Assembly (NCBI GenBank): GCA_900758315.1
Contig: CAAERF010000402.1
Span: forward strand, 1-55,732
Length of the DNA: 55,732 nt
From: an uncultured Oscillospiraceae bacterium
GTDB lineage: Bacteria; Bacillota; Clostridia; Oscillospirales; Oscillospiraceae
Direction: 5' to 3'
Shown: positions 19,195 through 46,703 of the stretch, piece by piece
Numbering within the stretch: the stretch's first letter is position 1
Layout of the letters: the number at the start of each line of letters is the position of its first letter
Notes under the pieces: model-generated
The model's database searches: none
What the model was told of the DNA's origin: nothing
What the model saw: only the letters and a program-made list of their open reading frames with translations
Program-made: the position numbers and the translations under genes

Positions 19195-19231
19195 AAAAAA
19201 TAGGGGCAGGCAAAGTGCGCCCGCCCCTATT
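19195..19231 (-). terminator. Terminator of the late (lysis) operon
   Basis: AATAGGGGC-GGGC...GCCTGCCCCTATT stem followed on the minus strand by a run of six T, a few bases after the endolysin stop. Confidence 0.9.
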
Positions 19232-19234
19232 GTC

Positions 19235-20397: not shown

Positions 20398-20503
20398 AAA
20401 ATTTCCTCCTCTGACTAAAAAATCTGATATGATAAAAGGTGCGGGTGTGAAAACGTGTAACTGAACGACAGTGTTGCGTCTGAAAATAGAAAGAAGGCGT
20501 TAA

Positions 20504-20923: not shown

Positions 20924-20927
20924 AGAC

Positions 20928-23105: not shown

Positions 23106-23119
23106 AAGCGCTCACTCCT

Positions 23120-28377: not shown

Positions 28378-28391
28378 AGCCCTCGCCTCCC

Positions 28392-28556
28392 TTAAAATCT
28401 ATCGAAATCTTCCTGCGTGGCTACCTGCCGGTATTTCACTCCATCGTTAGCCCGCTCCGTCCACATATCCGTGACCATGCCGATGGTGAGCAAGTCAAGG
28501 TCACGGATAGAAACGCCAATCTCAAGGCAACGCAGAAGGAACAGAGGCGTTGTCAT
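28392..28556 (-). CDS. Tail assembly chaperone extension (gpT-like), read by -1 frameshift or from its own ATG
   Basis: A 54-residue frame beginning MTTPLFLLRCLEIGVS and ending EDFDRF. Its ATG overlaps the stop of the preceding gene (ATGA). The same frame is also open upstream to the A-heptamer at 28580-28586, so a -1 shift there would give a gpG-T fusion of 178 residues (116 + 62). This matches the G/GT arrangement known between the major tail protein and the tape measure of siphophages. Confidence 0.75.
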   Translation of the reverse strand: MTTPLFLLRCLEIGVSIRDLDLLTIGMVTDMWTERANDGVKYRQVATQEDFDRF

Positions 28557-28927
28557 TTCCCGCTCACTTCTGCCAACCCTTTTTTTGCGGCCACATCCGT
28601 CTGCACGTTATCGCTCCACATGGCCAACAGGTCGGGCATAATTTCATAGATAGAGAAAATCTCGAACTGGTCGAGCCACTCATTGATGTCCTGGGGAATA
28701 GAGTTGTCCGCGTGATACGCCATGATGTAAGCCAGATTTTCAAAAATCTCGAGGTCGTCAATGGCAAACTCGTCCCCGGTCTCCGCATTGGCTTTGAACG
28801 ACTTCTCCAGCTTCGAGAGGTCACGGAAGATGTCCCTCTTGAACTTCGCTCGATACAGGCGGGGTACCGTAGCGGAAGATCGGAACTTCACAGGTTTGCC
28901 GCAAACCATGATCTCGCGCTTGATCAT
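28553..28927 (-). CDS. Tail assembly chaperone (gpG-like)
   Basis: 124 residues, soluble and charged, in the conserved position between the major tail protein and tape measure gene. It begins MIKREIMVCGKPVKFRSSATV and contains FAIDDLEIFENLAYIM, a pattern seen in Firmicutes phage tail chaperones. Codons 114-117 (GCA AAA AAA GGG) contain a slippery A AAA AAA heptamer. It overlaps the major tail protein by four bases. Confidence 0.82.
   Translation of the reverse strand: MIKREIMVCGKPVKFRSSATVPRLYRAKFKRDIFRDLSKLEKSFKANAETGDEFAIDDLEIFENLAYIMAYHADNSIPQDINEWLDQFEIFSIYEIMPDLLAMWSDNVQTDVAAKKGLAEVSGK
28580..28586 (-). promoter_or_regulatory. Slippery heptamer A AAA AAA for -1 frameshift
   Basis: Seven A on the minus strand in the X XXY YYZ phase of the gpG-like frame, followed by GGG. 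The -1 frame is open from here through to 28392. Confidence 0.75.
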
Positions 28928-29520
28928 ACGCCACCTCCGGCTTCAGTGACCGGCACCATCTCATACACCGTGGAATACCAGCTGTTATAGGTCTCGGTAT
29001 CCGTGGTGTCTCCGGTACGGGCTTTGACCATTCCATCAGCACGGGGGTCAGCAGTCAGGCTCAGTGTCTCCGTGCCGGGCTCGATGGTGTCCTCCTTCGT
29101 CTCGGACTCAATGGAGGGACGGGACGCTGTGCAGTTGTAGAGAACGTGGCGAATAGCGTTCACATCACCGTCGAACTCAAAAAGCAAAGCGAACTTGACC
29201 GATTCTGCATTGTTGCTCTGTTCAATGAGCACACCATTCTCATCAAGAGTCTCCTGAAGAATCTCTTCACGAAACCACTCAGGGATAAGGGCAATCTCCA
29301 GGTCGCCGCTGTATCCGTTGTTGGTCACGGTACGGAAATACACGATACCGTCCGCATAGAACGGGCTGGACTCGCCTTCGGCGCTCAGGCTGATACTGAC
29401 TGCGCCGGGGATAGCCTGCGGAGTAGCGTAGCTATAGGTGACCACTCCGTCCTCGCCTGGGGTCTCCGTCAGCTTTGCCGCATATACATTTTTCAAATTG
29501 TATTTGACTTTGTTACCCAT
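28924..29520 (-). CDS. Major tail protein (phi13 type)
   Basis: 198 residues. VKYNLKNVYAAKLTE at the N-terminus, IPGAVSISLSAEGESSPFYADG and GYSGDLEIALIPEWFREEIL are the signatures of the phi13-type major tail (tube) protein, which polymerises into the tail tube. The C-terminus (SLTADPRADGMVKARTGDTT) fits the family. It is the first tail gene after the head-tail joining genes. Confidence 0.9.
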   Translation of the reverse strand: MGNKVKYNLKNVYAAKLTETPGEDGVVTYSYATPQAIPGAVSISLSAEGESSPFYADGIVYFRTVTNNGYSGDLEIALIPEWFREEILQETLDENGVLIEQSNNAESVKFALLFEFDGDVNAIRHVLYNCTASRPSIESETKEDTIEPGTETLSLTADPRADGMVKARTGDTTDTETYNSWYSTVYEMVPVTEAGGGV

Positions 29521-29525
29521 ATGGG

Positions 29526-29843
29526 TCAGACCTCCAATTCATATAAAACTTCGTACAGCTTCTCCGACTCGATGTAAGACTCGGTCTTATCGTAGAAAAG
29601 CCCCGCCCCATCGAGCAGGGCTTCCAGCTGCGCCTCTGTGTCCGGACTCTTTTCGTCCGTGTACAGCTCAATATCCACCTGTGTGACTTTGAAATAGGCA
29701 ATACCATCAGCGGCAAAGTTGTCCGAGCCAGGGGAGAGATACAGTAAAAAGGGCGGGTCAGGAGACTCGCCTTCTGCAAAATGGTGGTAAGCCAGGGGAA
29801 TACCCATGCCGCGCAAAAGTGTGGCCATTTCCTGAAGTGTCAT
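29526..29843 (-). CDS. Tail completion/terminator-like protein
   Basis: 105 residues, located between the HK97-gp10-like gene and the major tail protein, where siphophages carry the tail terminator. The sequence (YFKVTQVDIELYTDEKSPDTEAQLEAL) has the beta-alpha pattern of this small family; identification rests on position and shape more than on motifs. It overlaps the preceding gene by four bases. Confidence 0.7.
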   Translation of the reverse strand: MTLQEMATLLRGMGIPLAYHHFAEGESPDPPFLLYLSPGSDNFAADGIAYFKVTQVDIELYTDEKSPDTEAQLEALLDGAGLFYDKTESYIESEKLYEVLYELEV

Positions 29844-30220
29844 CCTTCCAGCCCCTTTCTGATTCTCTTTTCCAGCTCATCGACCGCATATTCCTCTGCC
29901 GGAGCGATATGTGGAGTACCTTCCACGCGACCGCCGCCGCGTTTCGCATGACCTTTCTCCAAGAGATGAGTCAGACCGGGCTTCTTGCGGTTGTAGACTG
30001 TAACGGTCAACTTCCCGCTGCGGTCAAGCGTCTTCTTCGCCGCCCAGCCTTTCCGATATTCACCGGAGCGGACGGGAGCCTTGTCCTCTACCTGTTTGGT
30101 AGTCTCTTTGGCCACGCTGTTCACCGCATCTCGGACGGTGTCTTCCGCAAGGTCACGGTATTCTTCCAGCGCGTCCATAACCGCAGTGGCGAGGTCACCA
30201 ATAGGGGTTTTCCTGCTCAT
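29840..30220 (-). CDS. HK97 gp10-family protein
   Basis: 126 residues with the family core: helical N-terminus, KAPVRSGEYRKGWAAKKT, then VYNRKKPGLTHLLEKGHAKR and HIAPAEEYAVDELEKRI. Members act in head-tail joining or tail completion. It overlaps both neighbours by four bases, so it is translated within the same morphogenesis operon. Confidence 0.92.
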   Translation of the reverse strand: MSRKTPIGDLATAVMDALEEYRDLAEDTVRDAVNSVAKETTKQVEDKAPVRSGEYRKGWAAKKTLDRSGKLTVTVYNRKKPGLTHLLEKGHAKRGGGRVEGTPHIAPAEEYAVDELEKRIRKGLEG

Positions 30221-30555
30221 GACCGTTTCACCCGCTCTCCTGTCAGCTTCAAGCGCTGGTGTCGGAACTGGACATCGTCAACGGTTGTGAGGTTGTAAAT
30301 CCTGCCTGCAAACAAAATGCGAAACTGGGAGCAGTCCAGACGCTCCAGCTTCTTGCACCAGCGTATAGTGAACACCAACGTGTCGCCGGGGAGTGTTTGA
30401 CCAGCAGCCTCATACTCTTTCCCAGACGAGAGATTGACATAGGCAAAGCAGGCATGGTAGTCAGCCCAGGTATTTTGCCTGTTCCCAATCTCGTCCTCGG
30501 TCACGCTTGCCTTCTGAATGGCGATGCGCTGACGCATTGCGCCGACTTCCATCAT
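30217..30555 (-). CDS. Head-tail adaptor (phage head closure family)
   Basis: 112 residues with MRQRIAIQKASVTEDEIGNRQNTW and AGRIYNLTTVDD, characteristic of the SPP1 gp16-like head closure family that seals the connector. An internal ATG at residue 7 (MRQRIAI) is an alternative start. It overlaps the upstream connector gene by one base. Confidence 0.9.
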   Translation of the reverse strand: MMEVGAMRQRIAIQKASVTEDEIGNRQNTWADYHACFAYVNLSSGKEYEAAGQTLPGDTLVFTIRWCKKLERLDCSQFRILFAGRIYNLTTVDDVQFRHQRLKLTGERVKRS

Positions 30556-30833
30556 TAGAAAACCACCTCCCGTTTGCCAGAGAGGATGGCCTTCAGCATC
30601 CCAACCAGCTCAGTCATATTGGTTTCGCCACGGCTATCAAAGAGATAGCTGACTGCATAGAGGACAGCGACACGCACGGTATCATCATCGGGAAGGTCTT
30701 TACGCAGTATAGTAGCGCACAAATCCTCTGCGGATGCGATCAAGGAGAGCAGTAGGTCATCCTCATCATCGTATTCGATTTTCAGATACGCCTTTGTCTC
30801 TTCCAGAGAAACCAGCAATGCGGTCACCTCCAC
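30555..30833 (-). CDS. Head-tail connector protein (gp6/gp15 type)
   Basis: 92 residues. The EETKAYLKIEYDDEDDLLLSLIASAEDL motif is the hallmark of the Phage_connect family, which forms a ring under the portal. It is the first gene after the capsid gene and its terminator hairpin. Confidence 0.9.
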   Translation of the reverse strand: MEVTALLVSLEETKAYLKIEYDDEDDLLLSLIASAEDLCATILRKDLPDDDTVRVAVLYAVSYLFDSRGETNMTELVGMLKAILSGKREVVF

Positions 30834-30835
30834 TA

Positions 30836-30871
30836 AAAAGTGCGGCTCCGGCAGGATGTCCCACCGGAGCC
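30836..30871 (-). terminator. Hairpin after the major capsid gene
   Basis: GGCTCCGG/CCGGAGCC perfect 8-bp stem, followed on the minus strand by CTTTTTA. It probably lets capsid mRNA accumulate in excess of downstream genes. Confidence 0.75.
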
Positions 30872-30883
30872 ATATTGGGTATA

Positions 30884-32101
30884 TCAGCCACCAGTGCCTG
30901 CAGCAGCGGCCATGGAAAGGGTCTTCACTGCCTCGGGCAGAATGAGCTTACCATCCACACGCTCGGAGGCGAGGAAGCCTACCTGACCGTTGGCAGCATA
31001 CAGCTCATTAAGGCGCTTGAAGGAACGACCCTGACGGTCAGCGATCCAGTAATAGGAGAGGTCGCCAAACGCCATGACCTTTGCGCCCGCAGCAATGGTG
31101 GGGACATAGGCAGAGGTGTAGAGTGGACGATTCAGAATCATGTCGGGCACACCGATCTGGACAGAGGGCTGCCAGATGTAGTTGCCGTTGTTGTCCTTCA
31201 GCTTACGCAGGGCTTTGACAGTGGCGTCGTTCAGCAGCCACACGGCACGGCGACGGTAGGGGGACTTCAGGGAGTGATAGAGGTCCATCACATCGTCAAA
31301 GGTGATGGCGGTCTGGCTGGACACAGTCACCCCAGCAGAAGCGCCGCCAGTGGCATTGAAGATGCCCGTGGGCTTGCCGGTACCGTCACCAACGAAGAAG
31401 GCTTCCTCTTCCTTGGCACCGATACGACGGGCAAACTCACGGGCAATATAGGTCTCCAGATTAAAGGCAGAGTCGTTCAGGAGCTCATCAGAAACCTTCA
31501 TCATGGTGGCCAGCTTGTAGGCAGAAATGGTCACCTGACCGAAGGCATCGTCATCCTCGGGGAACGCGCCCTCCTCGTCGATCCACGCAGCCTCGCCCTT
31601 GGAAGAGACGACGGGAATCTTACGGTCACCGGAGTTGGTCTGGATGATGGTAGCCAGGGAGCGGAAAAAGTTCTCCTCCTCCAGACCCTCAACGAGAGTG
31701 CGTTCAAACTCGTCGGGCACCAGGTAGCCGCCTTCGGTGTCGGTACCGACCTGCAGGGCGTTGCGCACATCATAGAAGTTCTTCTTGCGCATAGCATCCC
31801 AGAATGCCTGACGATATTCATCGGTGGCACGGCCGGTCTTTTCCTCGCCGCTCATAGCTGTGCCGGGCTTATTGGTGATGGGGCTGCTGGTGGGCTTGGA
31901 CAGCTCAAGGTCAATCGCAGCCTGACGCTCCAGCCGGTCGATCTCTTTGCCGAGCGCCACCACATCGGCCTCCATCTTGTCATAGGTGGCGGTATCCTCC
32001 GCAGAGAGCAGGCCGTCGCCGCCACGCTTGGTGTCGAGGAATGCCTTAGCAGCTTCCCACGCCTTTGCGCGCTTCTCACGCAGTTCCAGAATTTTGTTCA
32101 T
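30884..32101 (-). CDS. Major capsid protein (HK97 fold)
   Basis: 405 residues. The N-terminal ~90 residues form the charged coiled-coil delta/scaffold domain (MNKILELREKRAKAWEAA, EADVVALGKEIDRLERQAA), removed by the protease. The HK97 shell domain follows (TEGGYLVPDEFERTLVEGL, ISAYKLATMMKVSDELLNDS, GDGTGKPTGIFNA). It sits directly after the ClpP-like maturation protease and before a hairpin that could favour its high expression. Confidence 0.95.
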   Translation of the reverse strand: MNKILELREKRAKAWEAAKAFLDTKRGGDGLLSAEDTATYDKMEADVVALGKEIDRLERQAAIDLELSKPTSSPITNKPGTAMSGEEKTGRATDEYRQAFWDAMRKKNFYDVRNALQVGTDTEGGYLVPDEFERTLVEGLEEENFFRSLATIIQTNSGDRKIPVVSSKGEAAWIDEEGAFPEDDDAFGQVTISAYKLATMMKVSDELLNDSAFNLETYIAREFARRIGAKEEEAFFVGDGTGKPTGIFNATGGASAGVTVSSQTAITFDDVMDLYHSLKSPYRRRAVWLLNDATVKALRKLKDNNGNYIWQPSVQIGVPDMILNRPLYTSAYVPTIAAGAKVMAFGDLSYYWIADRQGRSFKRLNELYAANGQVGFLASERVDGKLILPEAVKTLSMAAAAGTGG

Positions 32102-35723: not shown

Positions 35724-37316
35724 TTAAAGAACAAAGAGACCACGTTCGTCATACACACTGGCTCCGTCCCCCTCATGTCTGATACAACGGTCAAGCGCCA
35801 TGATCAAAGCCACGATGCCATCGATTTTCTCAGTGGACTTTTCCTTGTCGGGCTTGATGTTCCCGGCAGGGTCTTGGCGCATGACTACGTTCTGAGCCAT
35901 CCACTTTAATACCGGGTTACCCCCATGAATGACGTTCCCCTCCATCAAGAGCTTAAACAGCTCCTTGCTTGGAGGGGACATATCTTTATAGCCCTGACCG
36001 AAGGGCACCATCGTGAATCCGTCATCCTCCAGATTCTGAATCATCTGTGTTGCATTCCAACGGTCGACCGCAATCTCTCGTATATCGTACAGCTTGGCCT
36101 GCTCCTCAATAAACTTCTCTATGAATCCATAGTGAATGACGTTACCTTCCGTTGTCATGATAAAGCCCTGCTGTGCCCACACATCGTATGGCACATGGTC
36201 ACGGCGGCAACGAAGCTCCAGAGTGTCTTCTGGAAGCCAGAAATACGGGAGCACGATGTACTTCTCGTCCTCTGACCGAGGAGGGAACACCATCACGAAT
36301 GCGGTGATGTCCGACGTGCTGGAAAGGTCAAGTCCGGCATAACAGACACGACCCTTGAGACTGGTCAGGTCAACGGAGCTATTTCCTTTCTCATAGATGT
36401 GGTCGGGGATCCAGCATACGGTGGACGATGTCCAAATGTCCAGACGGAGCTGCTTGAAGATGTTCTCCTCAGCTGGGTTGTCCTTTGCGGACAGAAATGC
36501 GTCCCGCATCCGGTCAATACCGATGGTGTGCCCGAGGGACGGGTTAGCCTTGTACCAGTTGGCCTCGTCCGTCCAGTCATCATCGTCAGCAAGCCCATAT
36601 ACCACGGGATAGAAGGACGGGTCGATTTTCCTGCCGTTCATCAAATCCAGCGCCGTGGTGTGCAGCTCATAGCAGATGCTGTTGCGGTCGTTACCAGCCG
36701 TAGTGATAATGAAGAACAGCGGCTGCTCGCGGGCGTCGCCGGAGCCTTTGGTCAGCACGTCGTAGAGCTTCCTGTTCGGCTGAGCGTGTATCTCGTCGAA
36801 CACCAAGCCGCTCACGTTGAATCCGTGCTTGGTACCGACCTCGGCACTAAGCACCTGGTAAAAGCCGCTGTTGCTGTAGTTGACGATGCGCTTTGTTGCC
36901 CCCATAATTTTGCAGCGTCTCATGAGGGCAGGGGACATCTCCACCATCTGTTTTGCGACATCGAAAACGATGGATGCCTGCTGGCGGTCGGAAGCAGCGC
37001 CATACACCTCTGCCGACATCTCGTTATCAGCAAAGAGCAGGTATAGCGCGATGGCTGCGGCGAGCTCACTCTTCCCGTTTTTCTTTGGGATCTCCACGTA
37101 GGCAGAACGGAACTGACGCTTTCCGTCTGGCTTCACAACGCCAAACAGGTCGCGCACGATTTGTTCCTGCCAGGGTAGTAAGGTAAAGGGCTTCCCAGCC
37201 CACTTGCCCTTGGTGTGGCGCAGGTTTCGCACAAAGGCGACCGCCCGGTCAGCCTTGGCTTTATCGTAGTGGGAGGTGGAAAGCATAAAACTCGTTGGCG
37301 TATATTGAAACCCCAT
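35724..37316 (-). CDS. terL: Terminase large subunit
   Basis: 530 residues. Packaging ATPase: Walker A-like EIPKKNGKSELAAA and Walker B-like SGLVFDEIHAQPN. The C-terminal nuclease domain starts at YAGLDLSSTSDITAF, with the second acidic cluster in IREIAVDRWNATQM. The ATG at 37316 overlaps the small-subunit stop (TGATG); a GTG one codon earlier is also possible. HK97/phi-type terminase; pumps DNA through the portal and cuts concatemers. The higBA cassette separates it from the portal. Confidence 0.95.
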   Translation of the reverse strand: MGFQYTPTSFMLSTSHYDKAKADRAVAFVRNLRHTKGKWAGKPFTLLPWQEQIVRDLFGVVKPDGKRQFRSAYVEIPKKNGKSELAAAIALYLLFADNEMSAEVYGAASDRQQASIVFDVAKQMVEMSPALMRRCKIMGATKRIVNYSNSGFYQVLSAEVGTKHGFNVSGLVFDEIHAQPNRKLYDVLTKGSGDAREQPLFFIITTAGNDRNSICYELHTTALDLMNGRKIDPSFYPVVYGLADDDDWTDEANWYKANPSLGHTIGIDRMRDAFLSAKDNPAEENIFKQLRLDIWTSSTVCWIPDHIYEKGNSSVDLTSLKGRVCYAGLDLSSTSDITAFVMVFPPRSEDEKYIVLPYFWLPEDTLELRCRRDHVPYDVWAQQGFIMTTEGNVIHYGFIEKFIEEQAKLYDIREIAVDRWNATQMIQNLEDDGFTMVPFGQGYKDMSPPSKELFKLLMEGNVIHGGNPVLKWMAQNVVMRQDPAGNIKPDKEKSTEKIDGIVALIMALDRCIRHEGDGASVYDERGLFVL

Positions 37317-37789
37317 CACACATCACCGCCTAACAACTGCTCCATCTCGTCCTCAGAGCTATTACCGTCCGCACCCGCAACGATGCGGCTGCGGGAGGAG
37401 GGAGTAAGGCCAAACTGCTCACAGAACTTGAGCATGATTTTCTGATTGGTCTGGGCAATTGATACCTGTGGCACTTGCTGAAGATACCCGTTGGGGGTGC
37501 GCACCATAGAGCCATGCTGGGTGATAAACTCCTCTGCCTCTTTCCAGCGGGCGTAGGCTTGGCAATAACCCGCGAAAGCGGCCATGTCCATCTCGGTCAG
37601 AAGACCCATAGCCTCCAGCACCTTCGCCATGCGTTTCCACTCACGCTTAGCCTCATCCTCCAGCCAGGCGGGGCAGCGGGGCGCTTTTTTCTGCGGCTTT
37701 GGCTCATTTTTGTTGAGAGGCCGGCCTCCGGGGTTGCCCTCCAGCTCCTTGATTGCCGTGGGGACCGGCTTTCTGCCCCTCTGCGCCAT
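37316..37789 (-). CDS. terS: Terminase small subunit (P27 family)
   Basis: 157 residues from the ATG at 37789 (GGAGGTG 6 bases upstream). It begins MAQRGRKPVPTAIKELEGNPGG, the classic P27-family N-terminus, with a helical core (WKRMAKVLEAMGLLTEMD) and an acidic C-terminus. It binds the packaging site and delivers DNA to TerL, with which it overlaps. Confidence 0.93.
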   Translation of the reverse strand: MAQRGRKPVPTAIKELEGNPGGRPLNKNEPKPQKKAPRCPAWLEDEAKREWKRMAKVLEAMGLLTEMDMAAFAGYCQAYARWKEAEEFITQHGSMVRTPNGYLQQVPQVSIAQTNQKIMLKFCEQFGLTPSSRSRIVAGADGNSSEDEMEQLLGGDV

Positions 37790-37860
37790 AGGCATCACCT
37801 CCAAAATGGGCAAAAAGAAAGGACCTCCGAAGAAGCCCATAAAATCATTTATAACGAAGA

Positions 37861-38099: not shown

Positions 38100-38140
38100 A
38101 ATCTTGTCCTCCGTTTTCTTTGTTTTCCCTTTCGGTGTGT

Positions 38141-38171
38141 ACATATTCGCTCTAAAATGGCAGAATAGCAA
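38141..38171 (-). promoter_or_regulatory. Repeated promoter-like element, copy A
   Basis: Minus strand: TTGCTA, 19 bp ending in TTAGAGCGA, ATATGT, then ACCGAAAGGGAAAA; 41 bases before the ATG at 38099. Confidence 0.62.
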
Positions 38172-38230
38172 GTTAATTCAGAGGCATATAGTACACAAAG
38201 ATGAGGGCGCAAAATTGGTGTTTATACGCT

Positions 38231-38272: not shown

Positions 38273-38599
38273 TTAGGCTCTGACAGGAAGGACGTCCACC
38301 AGCCAGCCAACACCCTTGTGGGTAAGGCCGGTGGCCTTTTCCAGAACATTCTCGGCTTCCTCTACGTAGTGGACTCCCTTGCCGACTTTGATGAAGCGGG
38401 CGTCCTCATAACCAGGGATGTCGGTGCGATAAACGTAGGCGTGGCGGGTCTCGCCGTTGTAGGACTTTCCGTCCCAGCCATTGAATGAAAACTCAATCCG
38501 CTCCTTGGTCTTAGTGAAGTGTGCTTCGAAGGTCATGCGGTTAATGGCTATGCGGTCAATCAGTTCGAACTGCTCTCTCAATGTCCAGGGGTGCTTCAT
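38273..38599 (-). CDS. Unknown protein (108 residues)
   Basis: MKHPWTLREQFELIDRIAIN at the start; the ATG has GGAGG 8 bases upstream. Not recognised. It is mixed alpha/beta with many charged residues (FTKTKERIEFSFNGWDGKSYNG) and no membrane segment. It has its own copy (B) of the repeated promoter-like element and its own terminator, forming a single-gene unit. Confidence 0.7.
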   Translation of the reverse strand: MKHPWTLREQFELIDRIAINRMTFEAHFTKTKERIEFSFNGWDGKSYNGETRHAYVYRTDIPGYEDARFIKVGKGVHYVEEAENVLEKATGLTHKGVGWLVDVLPVRA

Positions 38600-38639
38600 T
38601 TTATGTTCCTCCGTTTTCGTTGTTTCCCTTTCGGTAGTC

Positions 38640-38670
38640 ACATATTCGCTCTAAAGCACCATAATATCAA
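38640..38670 (-). promoter_or_regulatory. Repeated promoter-like element, copy B
   Basis: Minus strand: TTGATA, 19 bp ending in TTAGAGCGA, ATATGT, then TACCGAAAGGGAAA; 41 bases before the ATG at 38599. Confidence 0.62.
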
Positions 38671-38721
38671 GTTAATTCGACTCATATAGCACACGATCAT
38701 ACAGCCTTCATTTTGTACATA

Positions 38722-39093
38722 TTATGTGCGGTCTACACCGATTCCAAGAGCCGAAATCTCTTCATCCGTCAGGCCGAGGCATCCGTGGAGCGTGGGATAA
38801 AGGTCATTATGACCAGCTGCTTCGATGATGTACTCCAGTGCACGGGAAAATATCTCCTCCCGTCGTTCCGCGGTGATGACCGGGACACAAAGGTCGGCTC
38901 TGTACACCACATTCAGGGACCCACCGGTCTCCCAGCCGACCATAATGCTGCCGGTATCATCAACGCCTCTCACCACACCCAGTGTCCCAACCGGGGGAGC
39001 CTGTGGGTCATCCATCCGTAGGAGCCGGACTTGGAGTCCAGGAGGGTAGCTCTCACGGATGAGAGATACCACGGAAGGATCTGGGAAGGTCAT
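38722..39093 (-). CDS. DUF4314-containing protein
   Basis: 123 residues from the ATG at 39093, which overlaps the upstream gene's stop (ATGA). The YPPGLQVRLLRMDDPQAPPVGTLGVVRGVDD segment with VGWETGGSLNVVY is the small DUF4314 barrel, common in clostridial phages and conjugative elements. The C-terminal helices (EEIFSRALEYIIEAAGH) are extra. Function unknown. Confidence 0.78.
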   Translation of the reverse strand: MTFPDPSVVSLIRESYPPGLQVRLLRMDDPQAPPVGTLGVVRGVDDTGSIMVGWETGGSLNVVYRADLCVPVITAERREEIFSRALEYIIEAAGHNDLYPTLHGCLGLTDEEISALGIGVDRT

Positions 39094-39302
39094 CGCGTTC
39101 CACCGCCTTTGCACTTGTGAATGATTTCTATGATCTGCTCCTGCTCTTCAGCCGCGACGCCGATTTCAGTGAGAGCTTCCCTTGTCCCGCAATCGGGGCA
39201 GATAAGGGTCATGTTGTCTTTGCGGGACAGAGCCGGAGGCTCGGAATATGGACGACCGCACCTCGGGCAAATGGTCATTCGAATGGTCATGGGCTTCATC
39301 AA
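39090..39302 (-). CDS. Small zinc-ribbon protein (70 residues)
   Basis: Two CxxC pairs, CPRCGRPYSE and CPDCGTREAL, form a probable zinc ribbon, followed by a helix (GVAAEEQEQIIEIIHKC). It overlaps the GGCT stop by four bases and the DUF4314 gene by four, so all three are one translational unit. Function unknown. Confidence 0.75.
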   Translation of the reverse strand: MMKPMTIRMTICPRCGRPYSEPPALSRKDNMTLICPDCGTREALTEIGVAAEEQEQIIEIIHKCKGGGTR

Positions 39303-39775
39303 GAATCCACCTCCCCAACGCTATAGTCATAAGCGATTTTTAACGCCTTCGGGTCAAAGCCAAAATCCCGATACCCGAATGCACACGTTTTCATATAACT
39401 CCGGGATGGCGTTCCGAGCTTGTGGTCCTCATGCATGATGTAGATGAACGCCTTTCTCATCTTGGCTTCGTTGGAGCCAAAAGCTGTCACAGGAAGGCGC
39501 ATATCAGTCTTGTAATAAAACCTCGGATACCCTTCGTAGACGTCCAGCATCCTTTCATCCTCCGGAGTTACAGACCAAACACCGACCGGCACCTCGTAGC
39601 CTTTTGCTGGCTCGATGGTGAGGTAGGAGCCGGTTTTACTGCCCTTGAACATGAGCCGGTAATCCTTGATGACCCCGGTGCCCTCTGCCTTTGCGTCAGG
39701 GCACCTGTGAGCCATCTGGAACTTATCCAGGTTGCTCCCGTAGGCAAGATATAATTTTCTGCTTTTCGTATTCAT
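39299..39775 (-). CDS. Gamma-glutamylcyclotransferase-like protein (GGCT/AIG2 fold)
   Basis: 158 residues from the ATG at 39775 (AAAGGA 8 bases upstream). The KLYLAYGSNLDKFQM loop binds the gamma-glutamyl group, and the Glu in LDVYEGYPRFYYKTD is the expected catalytic acid. GGCT enzymes release 5-oxoproline from gamma-glutamyl amides. It lies directly downstream of the amidoligase, which makes such amide bonds, so the two may make and break the same modification. This pairing is known for amidoligase loci; the substrate here is not known. Confidence 0.87.
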   Translation of the reverse strand: MNTKSRKLYLAYGSNLDKFQMAHRCPDAKAEGTGVIKDYRLMFKGSKTGSYLTIEPAKGYEVPVGVWSVTPEDERMLDVYEGYPRFYYKTDMRLPVTAFGSNEAKMRKAFIYIMHEDHKLGTPSRSYMKTCAFGYRDFGFDPKALKIAYDYSVGEVDS

Positions 39776-39817
39776 CACAGTCATCCTTTCGTGGGGAATA
39801 CCCTTCTACCACCTAAA

Positions 39818-39834
39818 GGGCGGTCATGCCGCCC
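39818..39834 (-). terminator. Hairpin between amidoligase and GGCT genes
   Basis: GGGCGG/CCGCCC 6-bp stem with a 5-base loop, followed by TTTAGG on the minus strand; a weak terminator or processing hairpin. Confidence 0.45.
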
Positions 39835-39899
39835 AATAGTGGTCTGTGGGGTCGATTCCCTCAAGAACGTGGCCTTGCGGCCTCGTCCCTGCCTGGCCT

Positions 39900-40832
39900 T
39901 CAAGCAGCCCGACCGTTGCGGAAGGCTGCATCGCCGCCGAGCCGCTTGGTCAGAGTGTAGCGGGCGGTCTGGAACTCGTCCCCGATGAAGCCCAGCCGAA
40001 GGAGCCAGGTGCGCATGGCGTACTTGGGGTTTTCATTCTGCTGGGGCTTGGGACTCGCGGTCTTGACCTCCTTTGCCATCTGGCTCAGTGCGAGGCAGAG
40101 CTGGATGTAGGTGCGAAGCTGGCCTGCGTGAATGCCACCCTTGCGGCCATCGCCAGGGTTGTCGAACTGGAAGAGTCGAAACTCAACCGTGCCCTTGGTA
40201 AAGGTCGCGTGGAGGTTGAGCATATGGTAGCGGGTCGGATTGTAATGGATGTTGCGGCTTCCGTAGCTATCCTGATACCAAATGTCGGCCAGGCCGCTCA
40301 TGGTCTTGGGCTTTTTCCTGTTCAGCCGCTGGAGAAATTCAGGATCCACAGTCCTGCAGTAATGGTTGATCCTGCTGCGGTCGAGGTTGAGGGCGTCAAT
40401 CAGCAGGCTTTCATGGCTTGCCATGATGTTTGCCAAGTTCCGCAGGGTTCCTGCTGTGTGGCCGTTGGCGCCGATGTGGATGTGTACTCCGCAGCCATGC
40501 TCAGGGTTGCTGATGGCTCCTGCGTGGCGAAGCTCTCTTGCGACCGCCAGCAGGTCCTCCAAATCGTCGTAGGTGAGGATCGGGGTGGTCAGCTCGGCGG
40601 TATGTCTGCCGCGGATGCTGGAGTCACTCATAGCCTTCCAAGTGCGACCCTTCCGGTCTTTGCAGCTCCATACATCGTAGCCGCCGCCATCGTAGCTCAC
40701 CGTATTCTCGGTGCCGAAGTATCTGGCGACCACCTGGGCGGTTTTCTGTCGGGTGATGTTGCTCATCTCAAGCTCGACCCCGATGGTCTGCTTTTTCATT
40801 TCCTCGACCTGTCTGGCAAGCTTATCGTTCAT
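39900..40832 (-). CDS. Amidoligase enzyme (Amidoligase_2, COOH-NH2 ligase family)
   Basis: 310 residues from the ATG at 40832, which has GGAGG 9 bases upstream. Family motifs in order: IGVELEMSNIT with the paired Glu, AELTTPIL, CGVHIHIGANGHTAG, and GTVEFRLFQFDN. These match the GCS/glutamine-synthetase-like fold that forms amide bonds with ATP. The last ~45 residues (KYAMRTWLLRLGFIGDE ... AAFRNGRAA) are a separate module also found at the end of the upstream neighbour. It is preceded by element C and followed by a GGCT gene. The substrate (peptide, protein or wall precursor) is unknown. Confidence 0.88.
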   Translation of the reverse strand: MNDKLARQVEEMKKQTIGVELEMSNITRQKTAQVVARYFGTENTVSYDGGGYDVWSCKDRKGRTWKAMSDSSIRGRHTAELTTPILTYDDLEDLLAVARELRHAGAISNPEHGCGVHIHIGANGHTAGTLRNLANIMASHESLLIDALNLDRSRINHYCRTVDPEFLQRLNRKKPKTMSGLADIWYQDSYGSRNIHYNPTRYHMLNLHATFTKGTVEFRLFQFDNPGDGRKGGIHAGQLRTYIQLCLALSQMAKEVKTASPKPQQNENPKYAMRTWLLRLGFIGDEFQTARYTLTKRLGGDAAFRNGRAA

Positions 40833-40872
40833 GGTATGTGACCTCCGTTTCTTGTTTTCCCTTTCGGTAGTC

Positions 40873-40903
40873 ACATATTCACTCTAATTCAGGTAAATAG
40901 CCA
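40873..40903 (-). promoter_or_regulatory. Repeated promoter-like element, copy C
   Basis: Minus strand: TGGCTA, 19 bp ending in TTAGAGTGA, ATATGT, then TACCGAAAGGGAAAA; 41 bases before the amidoligase ATG. Confidence 0.6.
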
Positions 40904-40964
40904 GTTATATTTGAGCGTAAAGTACACAATCATGAGGAGCAGGAATTGTGTGTTTTAGCGCATC

Positions 40965-41903
40965 TTACTCCTCGAAAGATTCGTTGACCGTGTGGATAGG
41001 CGCCGCATCAGCGATTGTCTCCTGAAGGGATTTCTCCTTGGTCAGAGCCGGAAGCAGCTCCCCCTCAGAAGGGGCAGGAGTGGCCTCCTGTTCGGCCTTC
41101 TGGCGCTCACGGGCTGCGGCTCGGGCAGCTTTCCACTTGGCCTCGTCGTCGGGCGTACGGAAGGCCGTGTGGCCTTTAAGCCCTTCCAGCAGGACACGCC
41201 TCCCGTCTTTACCGTCAGCCCCGTCGAAGCCCACACGCAGGAGCCAGGAGCGGAGGTAGTATTTTTCGTTATCCTCAATGACGGTTTTCGGATTGACACG
41301 CTTGGACTCTGCAGCGGCTTTGACCATGTTACCCATGAGCGTGGACAGCGCAGCATTCTTATCTGCATCCTCCTGCTTCGGATAGGTCAGGGTCACCTGA
41401 CTGTCATCGAACGAGACTCCCTTGCAGGTCGAACGGAATCCCTCGAAGATGGTCAGGAAGTCATTGCGCTCAGTAGGGTTTTCGTCGGAAAGCCTCTGTA
41501 CGAGGTCATCGTCAATGTTCCAGAACTCCTGACCGAACACTTTGTTGAGCAGGTATTGCTTTGCGTGAGCCAAGTACGCAATGTTGCGAAGCTGCCCGGC
41601 GGTCAGCTCCTGAGCAGGTACCACTACGTTGACTTCCGTCATATCCTCGTCCTCCTCATTCTCGGCATGGAAACCCGCGGCTTCGAGCTGCTCAATGAGG
41701 TTTTCCACCTCCTCACTGTCAGCGCGGGCATCGAAAATGACGGTGCCGCTCTTATCAATGGTGAAATAGTCCACCACATAGTTGAACGTCGGCACCCCAA
41801 GGTACTTGGCTTCGCAGCCGAGGATCTCAGCCATTTTGTCAGCGAGGCGTTTCCGGTCGTTCCCGGTCACATTGTAGTTCAGGGTGAAGTTATTGGTGGT
41901 CAT
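40965..41903 (-). CDS. Unknown protein sharing a C-terminal module with the amidoligase
   Basis: 312 residues from the ATG at 41903 (AAAGGAGG upstream). The N-terminus (FTLNYNVTGNDRKRLADKM ... YLGVPTFNYVVDYFTIDKSG) belongs to a family often labelled virulence protein in clostridial mobile elements, without experimental basis known to me. At about residues 220-265 it has KYYLRSWLLRVGFDGADG ... LKGHTAFR, closely matching the end of the downstream amidoligase. The tail is Ala/Glu/Lys-rich. It is preceded by element D. It may be a partner or substrate adaptor of the amidoligase. Confidence 0.8.
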   Translation of the reverse strand: MTTNNFTLNYNVTGNDRKRLADKMAEILGCEAKYLGVPTFNYVVDYFTIDKSGTVIFDARADSEEVENLIEQLEAAGFHAENEEDEDMTEVNVVVPAQELTAGQLRNIAYLAHAKQYLLNKVFGQEFWNIDDDLVQRLSDENPTERNDFLTIFEGFRSTCKGVSFDDSQVTLTYPKQEDADKNAALSTLMGNMVKAAAESKRVNPKTVIEDNEKYYLRSWLLRVGFDGADGKDGRRVLLEGLKGHTAFRTPDDEAKWKAARAAARERQKAEQEATPAPSEGELLPALTKEKSLQETIADAAPIHTVNESFEE

Positions 41904-41933
41904 GGCTTGCAGCCTCCTTTTGTTTTGGTAGCA

Positions 41934-41964
41934 CATATATCACTCTGAACGCCTCATAAGTCAA
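41934..41964 (-). promoter_or_regulatory. Repeated promoter-like element, copy D
   Basis: Minus strand: TTGACT, 19 bp ending in CAGAGTGA, TATATG, then TGCTACCAAAAC; 31 bases before the ATG at 41903. Confidence 0.62.
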
Positions 41965-41997: not shown

Positions 41998-43299
41998 TTA
42001 GACACAATTTGCGTAGGAATCCAGGATGGCCTGTCCAATTGCAGAAACGACCGGCACGGTTACGCCATTACCCGCCTGCTTATAGAGCTGGGCATCAGAA
42101 TTGACTGCCCTGGCTCTATCGAACAACTCATCCGGGAAGCCTTGCAATCGGAAGCACTCCCTTGGGGTCAGCCTGCGAATGCGCACCTGCTTTCCGTTCC
42201 ATGTCACGACTCCCATGGAGCCGCTGCAGGTAAGGTTGTGGGCAACACCCTGACCCACCCGCGCCCGCCTTGTCTCCGACTTGGGATAGGCAAGGTCGAT
42301 GGAGTCACCTGGAGCTGCTTCCTCATAACCTTTGTTGACTGCACTGCGTACCTTTATAAGATTAGGCTCCTCAAGCACCACGCCGTGGCGGTCTTGAGCG
42401 GTGAGCGTGAACATCGGCTCATCAACGTCCTTGACCCTGCGACCGTTCTGATTCTTAGACACATGGCTTGGGTCGATAACAGCCCTGGGATGCTGCACCT
42501 CCAGCACACCGCTGTTCGAGGCACGCCGATTGACGATCCCTGCGGTATAGTGGGAGACGAGACACCGAGCAGTATCTGTTATCTTCGGATTCACCAGCGA
42601 CTGGTCTATGAGGTACAAGCCCGTCTTGGCACCCACGCCACCGCCTTCACCGCAGATAGCGGAGGACACACCATTCATCTCATAAACCCTATACCCCTGT
42701 CTTCGCAGATTCACAACCTGCTTAAGATGTCCATGGCTCGTTGGGCTGACAGGTAGTATTTTTCTTCGACCTCTGACTCTAAGATGCCCGATAGTGTACA
42801 CTCGCTCCCGGCTTTGGGGGACACCAAAGTCTCTGGAATTGAAAATGTCCCATTCAACATCGTACCCAGCTTCGGCCAGCTCACCGAGATAATCGAGGAA
42901 ATCCCATCCGGCATGGCTTGACAGAAGTCCTTTAACATTCTCCAGCAATACCCATTCGGGTTTATCTTCTTCCTTTTGGCCTTTGATGAGGTCAATGAAG
43001 TTAAAAAAGAGTCCACTTCGCTCACCGTGTATTCCGGCGCGTCCCCCTGCAAGAGAGACGTTCTGACAAGGGCTTCCCGCACACCAGATATCTGCTTTTG
43101 GAATTGCATCCGCTGTGAGCTTTGTGATGTCTGCTCCATACCATTCTCCCTCCGTTTCGTACATGGCGCGATAGGACCGCACGGCGAATTTATCGTTCTC
43201 GCAAAAGCCCACGCACCTCATGCCGACCCGCTCTAAGCCGAGTCTGAAGCCACCGACCCCGGCAAAGAAGTCAATGAAGGTGAGCTGTCGGCCCATCAT
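41998..43299 (-). CDS. dcm: C5-cytosine DNA methyltransferase
   Basis: 433 residues with the ordered m5C motifs: I (FIDFFAGVGGFRLGLE), IV with catalytic Cys78 (AGSPCQNVSLAG), VI (LLENVKGLL), VIII (SRERVYTIG), a target-recognition region, then IX-X (RRLTPRECFRLQGFPDE and QAGNGVTVPVV). No cognate restriction gene is visible. It overlaps the ParB-methylase gene by four bases. It probably protects phage DNA from host restriction, with SAM supplied in part by the linked MetK. Confidence 0.95.
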   Translation of the reverse strand: MMGRQLTFIDFFAGVGGFRLGLERVGMRCVGFCENDKFAVRSYRAMYETEGEWYGADITKLTADAIPKADIWCAGSPCQNVSLAGGRAGIHGERSGLFFNFIDLIKGQKEEDKPEWVLLENVKGLLSSHAGWDFLDYLGELAEAGYDVEWDIFNSRDFGVPQSRERVYTIGHLRVRGRRKILPVSPTSHGHLKQVVNLRRQGYRVYEMNGVSSAICGEGGGVGAKTGLYLIDQSLVNPKITDTARCLVSHYTAGIVNRRASNSGVLEVQHPRAVIDPSHVSKNQNGRRVKDVDEPMFTLTAQDRHGVVLEEPNLIKVRSAVNKGYEEAAPGDSIDLAYPKSETRRARVGQGVAHNLTCSGSMGVVTWNGKQVRIRRLTPRECFRLQGFPDELFDRARAVNSDAQLYKQAGNGVTVPVVSAIGQAILDSYANCV

Positions 43300-44564
43300 G
43301 CTTCACCCCCGGTCTGGGGCTTGGGCACTTCGCTCCACGGGAGCTTCTCACCGTCTCGCAGCAGAAACACACCGTCCGCATCACCGGTCTGCTCGATGTA
43401 CCGAGCAACGATGACATCCACAAACTTCTCGTCCAGCTCGATGCCATAGCAGATGCGGTTGGTCTGCTCACACGCAATGAGTGTGGAGCCAGATCCGCTG
43501 AAGGGGTCGAGAACGATGCAGTTGCTCATGCAGGAGTTCTGAATGGGGTAGGCCATCAGTGCGATGGGTTTCATGGTGGGGTGGTCTTTAGAAGCGGAGG
43601 GCCGGTCATACTCCCAGATGGTTGTCTGCTTGCGGTCTGAATACCACTGATGCTTCCCGCCGACCTTCCATCCAAACAGGCACGGCTCGTGCTGCCACTG
43701 GTAAGGGGAGCGCCCGAGCACAAGTCTGTCTTTCTTCCAGATACAGCACCCAGACAGATAAAAACCTGCGTCGTGGAACGCCTGACGGAAGATGAGCCCT
43801 TTGGAATCAGCGTGGAAAACATAAATGGAGGCGTCTGCCTCCATGTTCTGCTCCATATTCACGAATGCCGCAAAGAGGAATTTATAGAAATCCTCATCGC
43901 TCATATTGTCGTTTTTGATTCGTCCGGCTGTCTCTTCTACATTTACATTATAGGGTGGGTCGGTGAGAACGAGGTTTGCCCTCTTGCCGTCCATGAGCTT
44001 TTCATAGGACTCGGGTAGCAGGGAGTCACCGCAGAAAATGCGGTGCGGACCCAGCAGCCAAAGGTCACCGGGCTTGGCGACATTGGGCTTCTGAAGCTGT
44101 GCGTCTACATCAAAGTCATCCTCTGTGATTTTCTTGTTGTGTACCTTGGAGAAGAGTTGATCGATTTCGGCAGGCTCGAAGCCGGTTAGGTCAGTATTGA
44201 AGTCGGCACTCTGCAGGTCAACCAGCAGGTCTGCCAGGAGCTGCTCATTCCAAGCGCCGGTGATTTTGTTCAGCGCCACATTCAGAGCTTTAACCTTGTG
44301 CTCATCCTCGATATGGAGCACGACACACTCCACTTCGGTATAGCCCAAGTCCTTCAGGACAGTTAGCCGCTGGTGGCCTCCAATGACGGTCATATTGTAG
44401 TTGACGATGATTGGCTCCACATATCCAAACTCCTGGATGGAGTTCTTGATTTTCTCATACTCTTTATCTCCGGCCTTCAGCTTCTTGCGAGGATTGTATG
44501 CTGCAGGCCGCAAGTCGCCAACGGGAATGGTACGCCACTCCATGGCGCTTTTGTTTTCACTCAT
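43296..44564 (-). CDS. ParB-like / DNA (N6-A or N4-C) methyltransferase
   Basis: 422 residues from the ATG at 44564 (AAGGAGG upstream). The N-terminal ParB/sulfiredoxin-like domain (DLRPAAYNPRKKL ... VIGGHQRLTVLKDLGY) is followed by a beta-class amino-methyltransferase: motif IV DPPYNVNVEE at about residue 202, KDHPTMKPIAL, and motif I DPFSGSGSTLIACEQ after it. This fused type is common in clostridial phages. The 5' end overlaps the upstream HTH-zinc gene by 8 bases. Confidence 0.94.
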   Translation of the reverse strand: MSENKSAMEWRTIPVGDLRPAAYNPRKKLKAGDKEYEKIKNSIQEFGYVEPIIVNYNMTVIGGHQRLTVLKDLGYTEVECVVLHIEDEHKVKALNVALNKITGAWNEQLLADLLVDLQSADFNTDLTGFEPAEIDQLFSKVHNKKITEDDFDVDAQLQKPNVAKPGDLWLLGPHRIFCGDSLLPESYEKLMDGKRANLVLTDPPYNVNVEETAGRIKNDNMSDEDFYKFLFAAFVNMEQNMEADASIYVFHADSKGLIFRQAFHDAGFYLSGCCIWKKDRLVLGRSPYQWQHEPCLFGWKVGGKHQWYSDRKQTTIWEYDRPSASKDHPTMKPIALMAYPIQNSCMSNCIVLDPFSGSGSTLIACEQTNRICYGIELDEKFVDVIVARYIEQTGDADGVFLLRDGEKLPWSEVPKPQTGGEA

Positions 44565-45033
44565 TATACGGATCCTCCTTGTCAGGGGTGTATGGCGGGC
44601 GACCGTCCTCGTCGCGCCAGAAACGGTCACGGATGTAGCATTCGTGTGAGCAATACTTTCTGCTCCGGTTTCCGTAAGAGACAAACTCAGTGCCACAGCA
44701 GGCGCACATCAAATGGTAGTACGCAGACTCGCTGCGCTTGGTGGCCTCTGGATGTGACTTCCACCATGCACGGCGGCAGGAGTCCGAGCAGAACTTCTTC
44801 CTTCTCCCGGTGTGTGGTTGGAGAAGGGGCCGACCGCAGTACCAGCAGACCTTTCCCCGTTCCATCTGCTCCTTCATATTTACCGTGAGGTCTGAGCAGA
44901 GGCCATCCAGCCCATGGGATTTACAGTAGTTGCGTACTATGTCGCGGGTGAGCCCAGTCATGGTGGCGATGGACTTGTAACCGGCACCTCGTAATCTGAG
45001 TTCCCTGATTTGAGCCGCCTGGATTTGAGTCAT
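44557..45033 (-). CDS. HTH plus double zinc-finger protein
   Basis: 158 residues from the ATG at 45033. An N-terminal HTH (QIRELRLRGAGYKSIATMTGLTRD) resembles a sigma-region-4-like motif and such proteins are sometimes labelled sigma-70-like. It is followed by Cys-rich fingers (CWYCGRPLLQPHTGRRKKFCSDSCRRAW split by ~15 residues; CACCGTEF ... YCSHECY). Likely a DNA-binding regulator or small recombination-associated factor. First gene after the terminator at 45072, followed by the two methyltransferases. Confidence 0.75.
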   Translation of the reverse strand: MTQIQAAQIRELRLRGAGYKSIATMTGLTRDIVRNYCKSHGLDGLCSDLTVNMKEQMERGKVCWYCGRPLLQPHTGRRKKFCSDSCRRAWWKSHPEATKRSESAYYHLMCACCGTEFVSYGNRSRKYCSHECYIRDRFWRDEDGRPPYTPDKEDPYNE

Positions 45034-45291: not shown

Positions 45292-45660
45292 TCAATAGCT
45301 GTACACAGGATTTTTATCTTCGTTCCCTGTCTTTTTGTCGTGGCAGGGCTTGCAAAGCGGCTGCCAATTTGCCCGATTCCAGAAGAGGGTCGGGTCACCT
45401 CGATGCGGTTTGATGTGGTCAACGACCGTGGCCTTGGTGTATTTCCCTTGCCGAGCACACTCTGCACACAGTGGGTGTGCTCGTAGATATGCCTTGCTTT
45501 CTCGCTGCCAACGGGAGCCATACCCACGGGAGCCAGCCGACCTCACCGCTTCCGGGTGCAGCGGCTTGTGTGTCTCACAGTACTGTTGGCCATAAGGCAC
45601 GAGGTTTGCGCAGCCTGGGTGTCGGCAGGGCGTGTTGGGTCGACGGGGCACAGCGGTCAC
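45292..45660 (-). CDS. HNH endonuclease
   Basis: 122 residues. An N-terminal zinc finger (PCRHPGCANLVPYGQQYCETH) precedes the HNH core: CAECARQGK, VVDHIKPHRGD and NWQPLCKPCHDKKTG. In HK97-like phages such proteins assist terminase in DNA cleavage at packaging. The start is a GTG overlapping the metK stop (GTGA), so it is coupled to metK. Confidence 0.92.
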   Translation of the reverse strand: MTAVPRRPNTPCRHPGCANLVPYGQQYCETHKPLHPEAVRSAGSRGYGSRWQRESKAYLRAHPLCAECARQGKYTKATVVDHIKPHRGDPTLFWNRANWQPLCKPCHDKKTGNEDKNPVYSY

Positions 45661-46703
45661 TCCTCCCAGGGAAGACCACAGCGCCCGAAGTGGCCGTAGG
45701 CCGCCACGTCATTGTAATCGACGTCCAGCAGGTGGAGCCGGTCAATAATACCGCGAGGGGTGAGGTCATAGGACGAGCGAATGGCTTTCACGATTTCACC
45801 GACAGGTCGCTGCTCGGTGCCGAAGCAATCCACGCCCACGGAAACTGGCTCGGCCACGCCGATGGCATACGCCAACTGGACTTCGCAGCGTTTGGCGTCT
45901 CCGGCACGGACGATGTCCTTTGCGATTTTCCTCGCCATATAAGCACCGCTTCGGTCGACCTTTGTAGGATCCTTGCCGGAAAGGGCACCACCACCATGGC
46001 GGCACATTCCTCCGTAAGTGTCAGCTATGATTTTTCTCCCGGTAAGCCCGCAGTCGGCAAATGAGCCGCCAATGACAAACCGCCCGGTCGGATTGACCAG
46101 GCGGCGAAAATCTGTATTCAGTTCATACTCTTCAGCAGCGGTCTCCATGATGGTCCCCACGATGGAGCGGAAATCCGACACCTGATATTCAGACCGATGC
46201 TGAGTGCTGATGAGGAATGTCGTGATTTTTCCCGTTTCGTAGTCAAAGGAAACCTGCGCCTTCGCATCCGGTAAGAACATGGAAGAATCCAAATCGCGCA
46301 GGAGCCGCAGTGCGAGGGTAGCTACAGCGAAGGGGATAGGGAGCATTTCAGGGGTCTCATCCGTCGCATAGCCGAACATCATGCCTTGGTCACCGGCTCC
46401 ACCTGTGTCTACGCCTTGGGCGATGTCTGGGCTTTGGATACCGAGCCAGTCGGTGACCCAGTATTGGCTGGTGTCTCGAATGCCCACACTATGGAGCACA
46501 TCAAAGGCCAGCCGCTCCAAGTCTGGATGGTGGAGGGAGGACAGCTCACCGGAAATGAGAATGTCCCTGTCTTTGATCAGACACTCGATACCGCACCTGC
46601 TGTTTCGGTCATTTCTCAGGCAATCGGTGACGATGGCGTCTGATATTTGGTCGCATATTTTGTCCGGGTGCCCACAGGACACCTGCTCACTGGTAAAAAC
46701 CAT
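45657..46703 (-). CDS. metK: S-adenosylmethionine synthetase (phage-encoded)
   Basis: 348 residues that make SAM from Met and ATP. Conserved motifs are intact: CGHPDKICDQISDAI (P-loop-like His/Asp), GAGDQGMMFGYAT, and GGGALSGKDPTKVDRSGAYMAR with the catalytic Lys/Asp. It is shorter than host MetK (about 395), mostly through internal and C-terminal trimming, a form I associate with phage and mobile-element copies. It heads a transcript with HNH and lies just upstream of two DNA methyltransferases, a natural consumer of SAM. Its own promoter is followed by a terminator before the start. Confidence 0.94.
   Translation of the reverse strand: MVFTSEQVSCGHPDKICDQISDAIVTDCLRNDRNSRCGIECLIKDRDILISGELSSLHHPDLERLAFDVLHSVGIRDTSQYWVTDWLGIQSPDIAQGVDTGGAGDQGMMFGYATDETPEMLPIPFAVATLALRLLRDLDSSMFLPDAKAQVSFDYETGKITTFLISTQHRSEYQVSDFRSIVGTIMETAAEEYELNTDFRRLVNPTGRFVIGGSFADCGLTGRKIIADTYGGMCRHGGGALSGKDPTKVDRSGAYMARKIAKDIVRAGDAKRCEVQLAYAIGVAEPVSVGVDCFGTEQRPVGEIVKAIRSSYDLTPRGIIDRLHLLDVDYNDVAAYGHFGRCGLPWEE

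Follow-up and report, generated by a model that had tools for sequence, protein, structure and literature searches.

An apparently movable amidoligase–cyclotransferase cassette in phages of gut bacteria, with a candidate structured RNA at the gene junction

A 55,732-nucleotide stretch of an uncultured Oscillospiraceae bacterium (GenBank assembly GCA_900758315.1, contig CAAERF010000402.1; hereafter the window) includes a prophage, recognised by similarity to phage record PV036448, in which a gene for a PF12224 amidoligase (AMID) is followed by one for a PF06094 gamma-glutamyl(amine) cyclotransferase (GGCT). Sequence comparison indicates that the pair is a movable cassette, repeatedly gained and lost together, with its linkage under selection. 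In most related phages, the gap between the two genes holds an evidently conserved, covarying structured RNA that is specific to the gap in the records searched. The neighbouring gene, PSEUDO, appears to encode a catalytically dead amidoligase relative that is kept by the phage backbone and falls outside the cassette. New relative to the literature searched are the joint inheritance shown for these phages, the junction RNA in most relatives and the reclassification of PSEUDO.

The amidoligase–cyclotransferase pair is found widely among phages of gut bacteria. Inheritance as a unit, exclusion of a third gene and an RNA that marks the junction together define a minimal system that can be assayed, and add a candidate structured RNA linked to a single enzyme pair. 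A further outcome is a correction to the labels "virulence protein" and "amidoligase" now carried by a large family in which the catalytic residues are missing. Features are listed in Table 1.

Inheritance of the pair

Locus sets comprised the best 80 loci by similarity for each query, and some contigs are shared between sets. Because the sets were taken by similarity to the query, near relatives dominate them. GGCT was present in 77 of the 80 viral loci found with AMID, and the remaining three stop 3–72 bases past AMID. AMID was present in 80 of 81 loci newly fetched by GGCT; the exception, L237, starts just before GGCT. For a test with less bias, 80 loci were retrieved by means of a PSEUDO alignment. 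Five of these have AMID without GGCT, and each ends in or just after AMID. After 17 loci that did not contain both PSEUDO and the downstream large terminase gene (TerL) were dropped, 63 spanned PSEUDO to terminase. Both AMID and GGCT were found in 25 of them, neither in 38 and one alone in none (both-or-neither in 63/63, Fisher 4e-18 with kinship ignored).

With no locus keeping a single gene of the two, the trees were used to count changes of the pair as a whole. There are at least 10 of these on a quick PSEUDO tree, where all nine supported independent contrasts are in step (p 0.004). A TerL tree of 51 rows gives eight changes with 6/6 contrasts in step (p 0.03). Pairwise distances of AMID and GGCT are correlated at rho 0.80 (0.78 with TerL controlled) versus 0.31 for AMID and TerL across 129 loci. 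For 87 loci with all five genes, rho was 0.61 for AMID–GGCT, 0.48 for AMID and the zinc-ribbon gene ZnR, 0.19 for AMID–PSEUDO, 0.11 for AMID–TerL and 0.72 for TerL–PSEUDO. These correlations suggest that AMID and GGCT, and ZnR more loosely, move between phages as a cassette and that PSEUDO travels with the backbone. Accidental linkage, which a preliminary description of this DNA would have read from absence of the pair in related phages, is not borne out by the loci: gain and loss are strictly joint, and the linkage is not accidental. The pair is likewise present, in other gene orders, in phages of Arthrobacter and Bacillus; in Waltz and 035JT001 it sits at a different site. Seven more distant PF12224 phages were examined, and PF06094 was present in Waltz, 035JT001 and NatCom_6392.

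The two enzymes

AMID matches PF12224 (Amidoligase_2) at 178 bits, with a curated cut-off of 22. The PF12224 family motifs are ExE, HxH and EFR, and all are intact in AMID as VELEM (E20/E22), HIHIG (H117/H119) and VEFRLF (E217/R219). Conservation was counted in distinct copies, window included, of at least 250 aa for AMID and at least 120 aa for GGCT. E20 is retained in 196 of 198 AMID copies, E22 in 197, and H117, H119, E217 and R219 in 198 each. The position and motifs given for the amidoligase in the preliminary description were thus borne out, and the loss of catalytic residues that it had set against itself was not seen, as they are kept in nearly all copies.

The predicted AMID fold is glutamine synthetase/glutamate–cysteine ligase (GCS)-like. 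The model is closest to YbdK and glutamate–cysteine ligases, which fits a maker of gamma-glutamyl amides; identity in the structural alignments is ~8–15%. By family, AMID would be an ATP-dependent amide ligase. GGCT matches PF06094 (GGACT/AIG2-like) at 46.7 bits (cut-off 22.8), and its family profile matches human GGCT (2pn7) at 1.9e-12. It keeps YGSN at residues 15–18 and the catalytic Glu84, which is present in 203/203 distinct copies; the GGCT-fold enzyme with these residues, described earlier as following the amidoligase, is confirmed. Members of the cyclotransferase family cleave gamma-glutamyl amides, and GGCT would by analogy release 5-oxoproline. Median dN/dS values of 0.11 for AMID and 0.15 for GGCT indicate purifying selection. 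No hydrophobic segment was found in AMID or GGCT, so cytosolic action is likely.

Three loci (L111, L118 and L158) have two cyclotransferase open reading frame (ORF) matches, located upstream of AMID in L111 and L118. P0001 was considered as a ligase fusion and rejected, as its repeated segments resemble an assembly artefact.

Structured RNA between the genes

The AMID–GGCT gap is usually ~70–110 bases (236 pairs, with the GGCT start set 12 codons before YGSN). A strong hairpin is present in 96% of 139 distinct gaps of 50–200 bases versus 20% of shuffled gaps. The shared form is an outer stem of GCCxCCNN with NNGGUGGU, an inner hairpin that is mostly GACCGC/GCGGUC, and then UAGAAG. The outer-stem score, 11.1 versus 10.3 per sequence, exceeds the shuffled one by a modest margin and was reached in 0/500 shuffles in which upstream parts were exchanged among 70 sequences. 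A covariance model was built from 11 sequences, with stems located by script beforehand. It gave 53 matches at E 1e-4, all in the gap, among 65 loci preselected for the motif in the gap. Both-sided changes occur in 6/14 pairs, with 43 double-changed cells versus 13.3 ± 2.7 in shuffles (0/500), counts that rest on a structure-fitted alignment, which favours covariation. The signal drops when the pairing partner is slid.

At E up to 1, the RNA was found in the gap of 72/77 ligase-to-cyclotransferase pairs of the AMID set and 29/33 of the PSEUDO set, with one locus in common, and in 0/39 loci without AMID and 0/3 loci with another gene order. The AMID-set pairs without it (L007, L008, L014, L041 and L042) are also without PSEUDO; the four in the PSEUDO set carry it because that set was selected for it. 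The AMID set gave 76 plus-strand matches. The gap accounts for 73 of these, a second copy in L046 scores 36.9 bits, and the other two are weak. The L046 copies, at 2594–2638 and 3020–3060, lie around a ~400-base insert between AMID and GGCT, one of them directly before GGCT. A match in L041 lies outside the gap and was excluded from the gap count. Nearly all minus-strand matches overlie the same palindromic sites. In genome contigs, 80 loci yielded 71 plus-strand matches at E 0.1 (position not script-checked). Among 29 whole records, a match at E 0.001 occurs in 15, at a single place in each. These are TPDSL_ph1, with the RNA in its AMID–GGCT gap, and 14 of the 16 pair-bearing IMG/VR records. 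None of six whole records without AMID has a match at that threshold.

In 92 of the 100 cases measured, the distance from the end of the RNA to the YGSN codon is 47–67 bases, which places the RNA immediately ahead of the GGCT start. Rfam gave no matches at gathering score in the window or in 12 loci (116 kb), and a relaxed threshold gave a single chance-level match on the opposite strand. The window copy was assigned because of its place, the shared GGTGGTAGAAGG block and its minimum-energy fold, which shows both stems (-26.9 kcal/mol, z -3.3). The hairpin is unlikely to be an intrinsic terminator, as the run of T after its inner hairpin is mostly just two long in the sequences displayed. A tiny 40-aa ORF in the window gap, at 39781–39903, was considered as a candidate peptide substrate.

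PSEUDO, ZnR and the AMID leader

PSEUDO residues 73–260 match AMID by BLASTP (4e-11), hhalign aligns the two at 99.8% (3.5e-28 over 223 columns), and both fall in the same PHROG. Judged by these alignments, PSEUDO is homologous to amidoligases in its C-terminal two thirds. At the six catalytic columns, window PSEUDO has N, N, N, V, T and T. None of the six catalytic letters is kept in 128 of 195 aligned rows, one in 66 and two in one, and His is at neither HxH column in any of the 195. With ExE, HxH and EFR missing, a role for PSEUDO as an active "second amidoligase" was rejected. It was also rejected as an obligate AMID partner, being without AMID in 38 of the 63 spanning loci and having distances that follow TerL, not AMID. 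Its dN/dS is 0.25. Database records label its relatives "virulence(-related) protein" or "amidoligase". PSEUDO lies within the range covered by the preliminary description, which mentions neither this gene nor the gap RNA. The single PSEUDO sequence found no matches among viral contigs, but the alignment query did find loci.

ZnR is present in 10 of the 25 spanning loci with the cassette versus none of the 38 others, using a cysteine filter. It falls below the cut-off for Mu Com PF10122 (13.4 versus 22.9 bits, E 0.053). A Com-like regulator required by the gap RNA finds no support, since loci in which ZnR was not found still give strong RNA matches (e.g., L031, L049 and L094). LysW-type carriers bear an amine on a conserved C-terminal Glu, and a LysW-like role was rejected, as the C-terminal tails of ZnR are variable among the aligned rows shown.

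The leader that precedes AMID and two small genes has a TTGNTA-like hexamer, 17 bases, a GAATAT/TAATAT-like hexamer and then ACCGAAAGG. The hexamers are exactly 17 bases apart in 72 of 86 non-redundant AMID leaders, for patterns chosen after viewing the sequences. A leader–post-Shine-Dalgarno stem is weak (mean 3.67 versus 3.41 shuffled, p 0.003, without kinship control).

Proposed function and alternatives

The function we propose, to which we give an even chance, is that of a movable accessory cassette (AMID, the hairpin RNA in most relatives, GGCT and often ZnR) for reversible gamma-glutamylation of a cytosolic amine. AMID would couple the amine to the gamma-carboxyl of glutamate or a glutamyl peptide at the expense of ATP, and GGCT would take the tag off as 5-oxoproline. 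The hairpin RNA may tune eraser translation or eraser mRNA stability relative to the maker. PSEUDO would stand outside the cassette as a dead relative retained by the backbone. We infer the chemistry, its direction, the common substrate and the role of the RNA, the last from position, and the fold is a prediction. An extension in which the gap RNA senses product, cassette enzyme or infection state to control the eraser, forming a self-regulating switch, and the dead relative could bind the same target and leave it unmodified, is rather unlikely.

Several points weigh against the cassette reading, in addition to the alignment bias given above. Chemically, the top Foldseek TM-score of the AMID model is just 0.51, and we know of no PF12224 member of this lineage with measured activity. 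An adjacent maker and breaker would cancel each other out if time, state or substrate did not keep them apart. PF06094 was not found in four of the seven distant PF12224 phages (Taranis, Pioen, IMGVR 15666929 and a Porphyromonas phage), so the ligase can do without a GGCT eraser. The make-and-break pair of the preliminary description therefore stands on intact residues, strict linkage and a YbdK/GCS-like model, but the linkage is not universal. As for the RNA, it is absent from 9/110 pairs, and RNAalifold on the plain MAFFT alignment A4 returned no pairs, a null attributed to the varying junction. The window copy is barely detected (18 bits, E 0.1 over 844 kb); over 301 bases it reaches E 3.6e-5, but with a different pairing. 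Near-identical PV036448 has no gap RNA match at E 0.001.

Wall modification against superinfection, in which the ligase would decorate peptidoglycan precursors or a surface amine and block adsorption of competing phages while GGCT recycles or trims, is an unlikely function here. GGCT requires a free alpha-amine, which is missing in stem-peptide D-Glu. With no hydrophobic segment in AMID or GGCT, just precursors would be reachable. The glutamine amidotransferase and ATP-grasp enzyme of published cassettes were not found in a Pfam scan of 30 window proteins, nor are they named in the PV036448 annotation. In its favour, wall modification has been proposed for phiEco32-like phages and is the published reading for related cassettes (PMC5498523, PMC10580990, PMC11253131, PMC11318856). 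Also doubtful, to a like degree, is an adjustment of metabolism during infection, in which small amines such as polyamines or amino sugars would be glutamylated to gamma-glutamylputrescine-like products and GGCT would restore the amine. The predicted AMID fold has amine-using relatives in GmaS and 1-naphthylamine GS (Foldseek). PuuA is a further one, and the GGACT/BtrG class acts on small gamma-glutamylamines. However, the PV036448 annotation, the only one searched for this, shows no amine-metabolism gene next to the pair, and packaging genes are not constant neighbours of the pair.

Maker and breaker adjoin on one strand, and an ATP-wasting GCS–GGCT cycle is known from human disease, so a futile cycle burning ATP as an abortive-infection or shutdown device was considered. 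It is very improbable: PADLOC had no match for AMID, GGCT, ZnR or PSEUDO at E 0.001, and the presence in most relatives of a conserved RNA ahead of GGCT points to AMID and GGCT not simply being run together. That the genes are accidental neighbours within one phage lineage is hardly credible. Most loci do come from related phages, and the four distant phages without PF06094 fit such an origin, but the two genes change together on no fewer than nine independent branches and separately on none, and this, with divergence coupled relative to the backbone, contradicts it.

Known systems

In butirosin biosynthesis the ligase BtrJ adds, and the GGCT-fold BtrG removes, a gamma-glutamyl group, as the proposed pair would do. 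BtrJ differs from AMID in having an ATP-grasp fold, and the BtrJ/BtrG target is a known antibiotic intermediate.

The preliminary description took amidoligase–GGCT linkage to be already known, which is correct: the pair is in print for phages and is read there as wall modification against superinfection. PMC5498523 describes a phage "peptidoglycan modification cassette" of amidoligases, ATP-grasp, cyclotransferase and glutamine amidotransferase (phiEco32/RIO-1 type). That cassette, like the present one, places a phage amidoligase together with a gamma-glutamyl cyclotransferase. Here, in contrast, there is one intact ligase, one cyclotransferase and a zinc ribbon, with a conserved RNA between the enzyme genes in relatives. 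Terrisporobacter phage TPDSL_ph1 (PMC11253131) and C. clostridioforme LM41 prophages phi13 alpha/epsilon (PMC11318856) have two "amidoligase" genes and then a cyclotransferase, the order of the window. Both genes are named amidoligases and the RNA is not mentioned in the portions seen of either paper. The first TPDSL_ph1 "amidoligase" is a PSEUDO member (341 bits versus 60 for AMID) without the motifs.

An AIG2-like gene with an amidoligase is described for cluster AL Arthrobacter phages in PMC5513430. In these phages and in Waltz, the cyclotransferase is beside the amidoligase, as here; the Arthrobacter arrangement differs in having it upstream of the ligase, and Waltz has a glutamine amidotransferase downstream. 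An amidoligase with an amidotransferase is discussed in PMC10580990. Genes of the pair are not named in the portions seen of PMC9226167 (Ca. Heliusviridae). No treatment of the gap RNA or the dead relative was found in titles and abstract starts, with most subscription papers outside the search. Amidoligase is not named in the main text of the structured-RNA survey PMC8040213, although the RNA may stand under a number in its supplement.

Window and neighbouring genes

The window is 99.9% identical to PV036448 over 12587–24900 and 98.7% over 31000–55732 (24901–30999 not compared). PV036448 is recorded as NatCom_34192, "Ca. Heliusvirales", from human feces. Evtepia is the source of the nearest host-named phages. 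Similarity to PV036448 stops abruptly at 12587, which is probably the prophage end, so 1–12586 is probably host chromosome. Before this point lie genes of bacterial appearance (Big_2 repeats, aldehyde dehydrogenase, polysaccharide synthesis).

The minus-strand order is S-adenosylmethionine synthetase, HNH, N6/N4 methyltransferase, C5 methyltransferase, PSEUDO, AMID, GGCT, ZnR, DUF4314, small genes and terminase. Zinc-ribbon, DUF4314 and two DNA methyltransferase genes are present around the pair as described earlier, and the terminase was placed using the PV036448 annotation. The location between DNA modification and packaging genes holds, but it carries little functional weight because the cassette is optional there, being absent from 38 of the 63 loci, and lies elsewhere in Waltz and 035JT001.

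Table 1. Features of the window around the amidoligase–cyclotransferase pair
Feature	Position	Strand	Basis or remark
AMID, PF12224 amidoligase, 310 aa	39900..40832	-	PF12224 match 3.9e-52
GGCT, gamma-glutamyl(amine) cyclotransferase, PF06094, 161 aa	39299..39784	-	PF06094 5.6e-12; phrog_2520 2.1e-48
Window copy of hairpin RNA, proposed, divergent (inner stem GGGCGG/CCGCCC)	39802..39843	-	Position, GGTGGTAGAAGG block, fold
ZnR, small zinc-ribbon protein, 70 aa	39090..39302	-	phrog_2945; often co-inherited with AMID–GGCT
PSEUDO, 323-aa AMID relative without catalytic residues, apparent backbone gene	40965..41936	-	BLASTP, hhalign, residues, distances
Promoter-like leader upstream of AMID	40828..40933	-	Repeated at 38595–38700, 38124–38206
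C5-cytosine DNA methyltransferase	41998..43299	-	Profile match; neighbour
ParB-N6/N4 DNA methyltransferase	43296..44696	-	Profile match; neighbour
DUF4314 protein	38722..39114	-	Profile match 9.5e-23; neighbour
Terminase small subunit	37316..37840	-	Gene at corresponding place in near-identical PV036448
Terminase large subunit (TerL)	35724..37319	-	Gene at corresponding place in near-identical PV036448

A pair of adjacent large serine recombinases lies near the prophage end at 16444–19081. The phage-encoded S-adenosylmethionine synthetase, at 45657–46703 and close to the two DNA methyltransferases, belongs to a family listed as unknown function in PHROGs.

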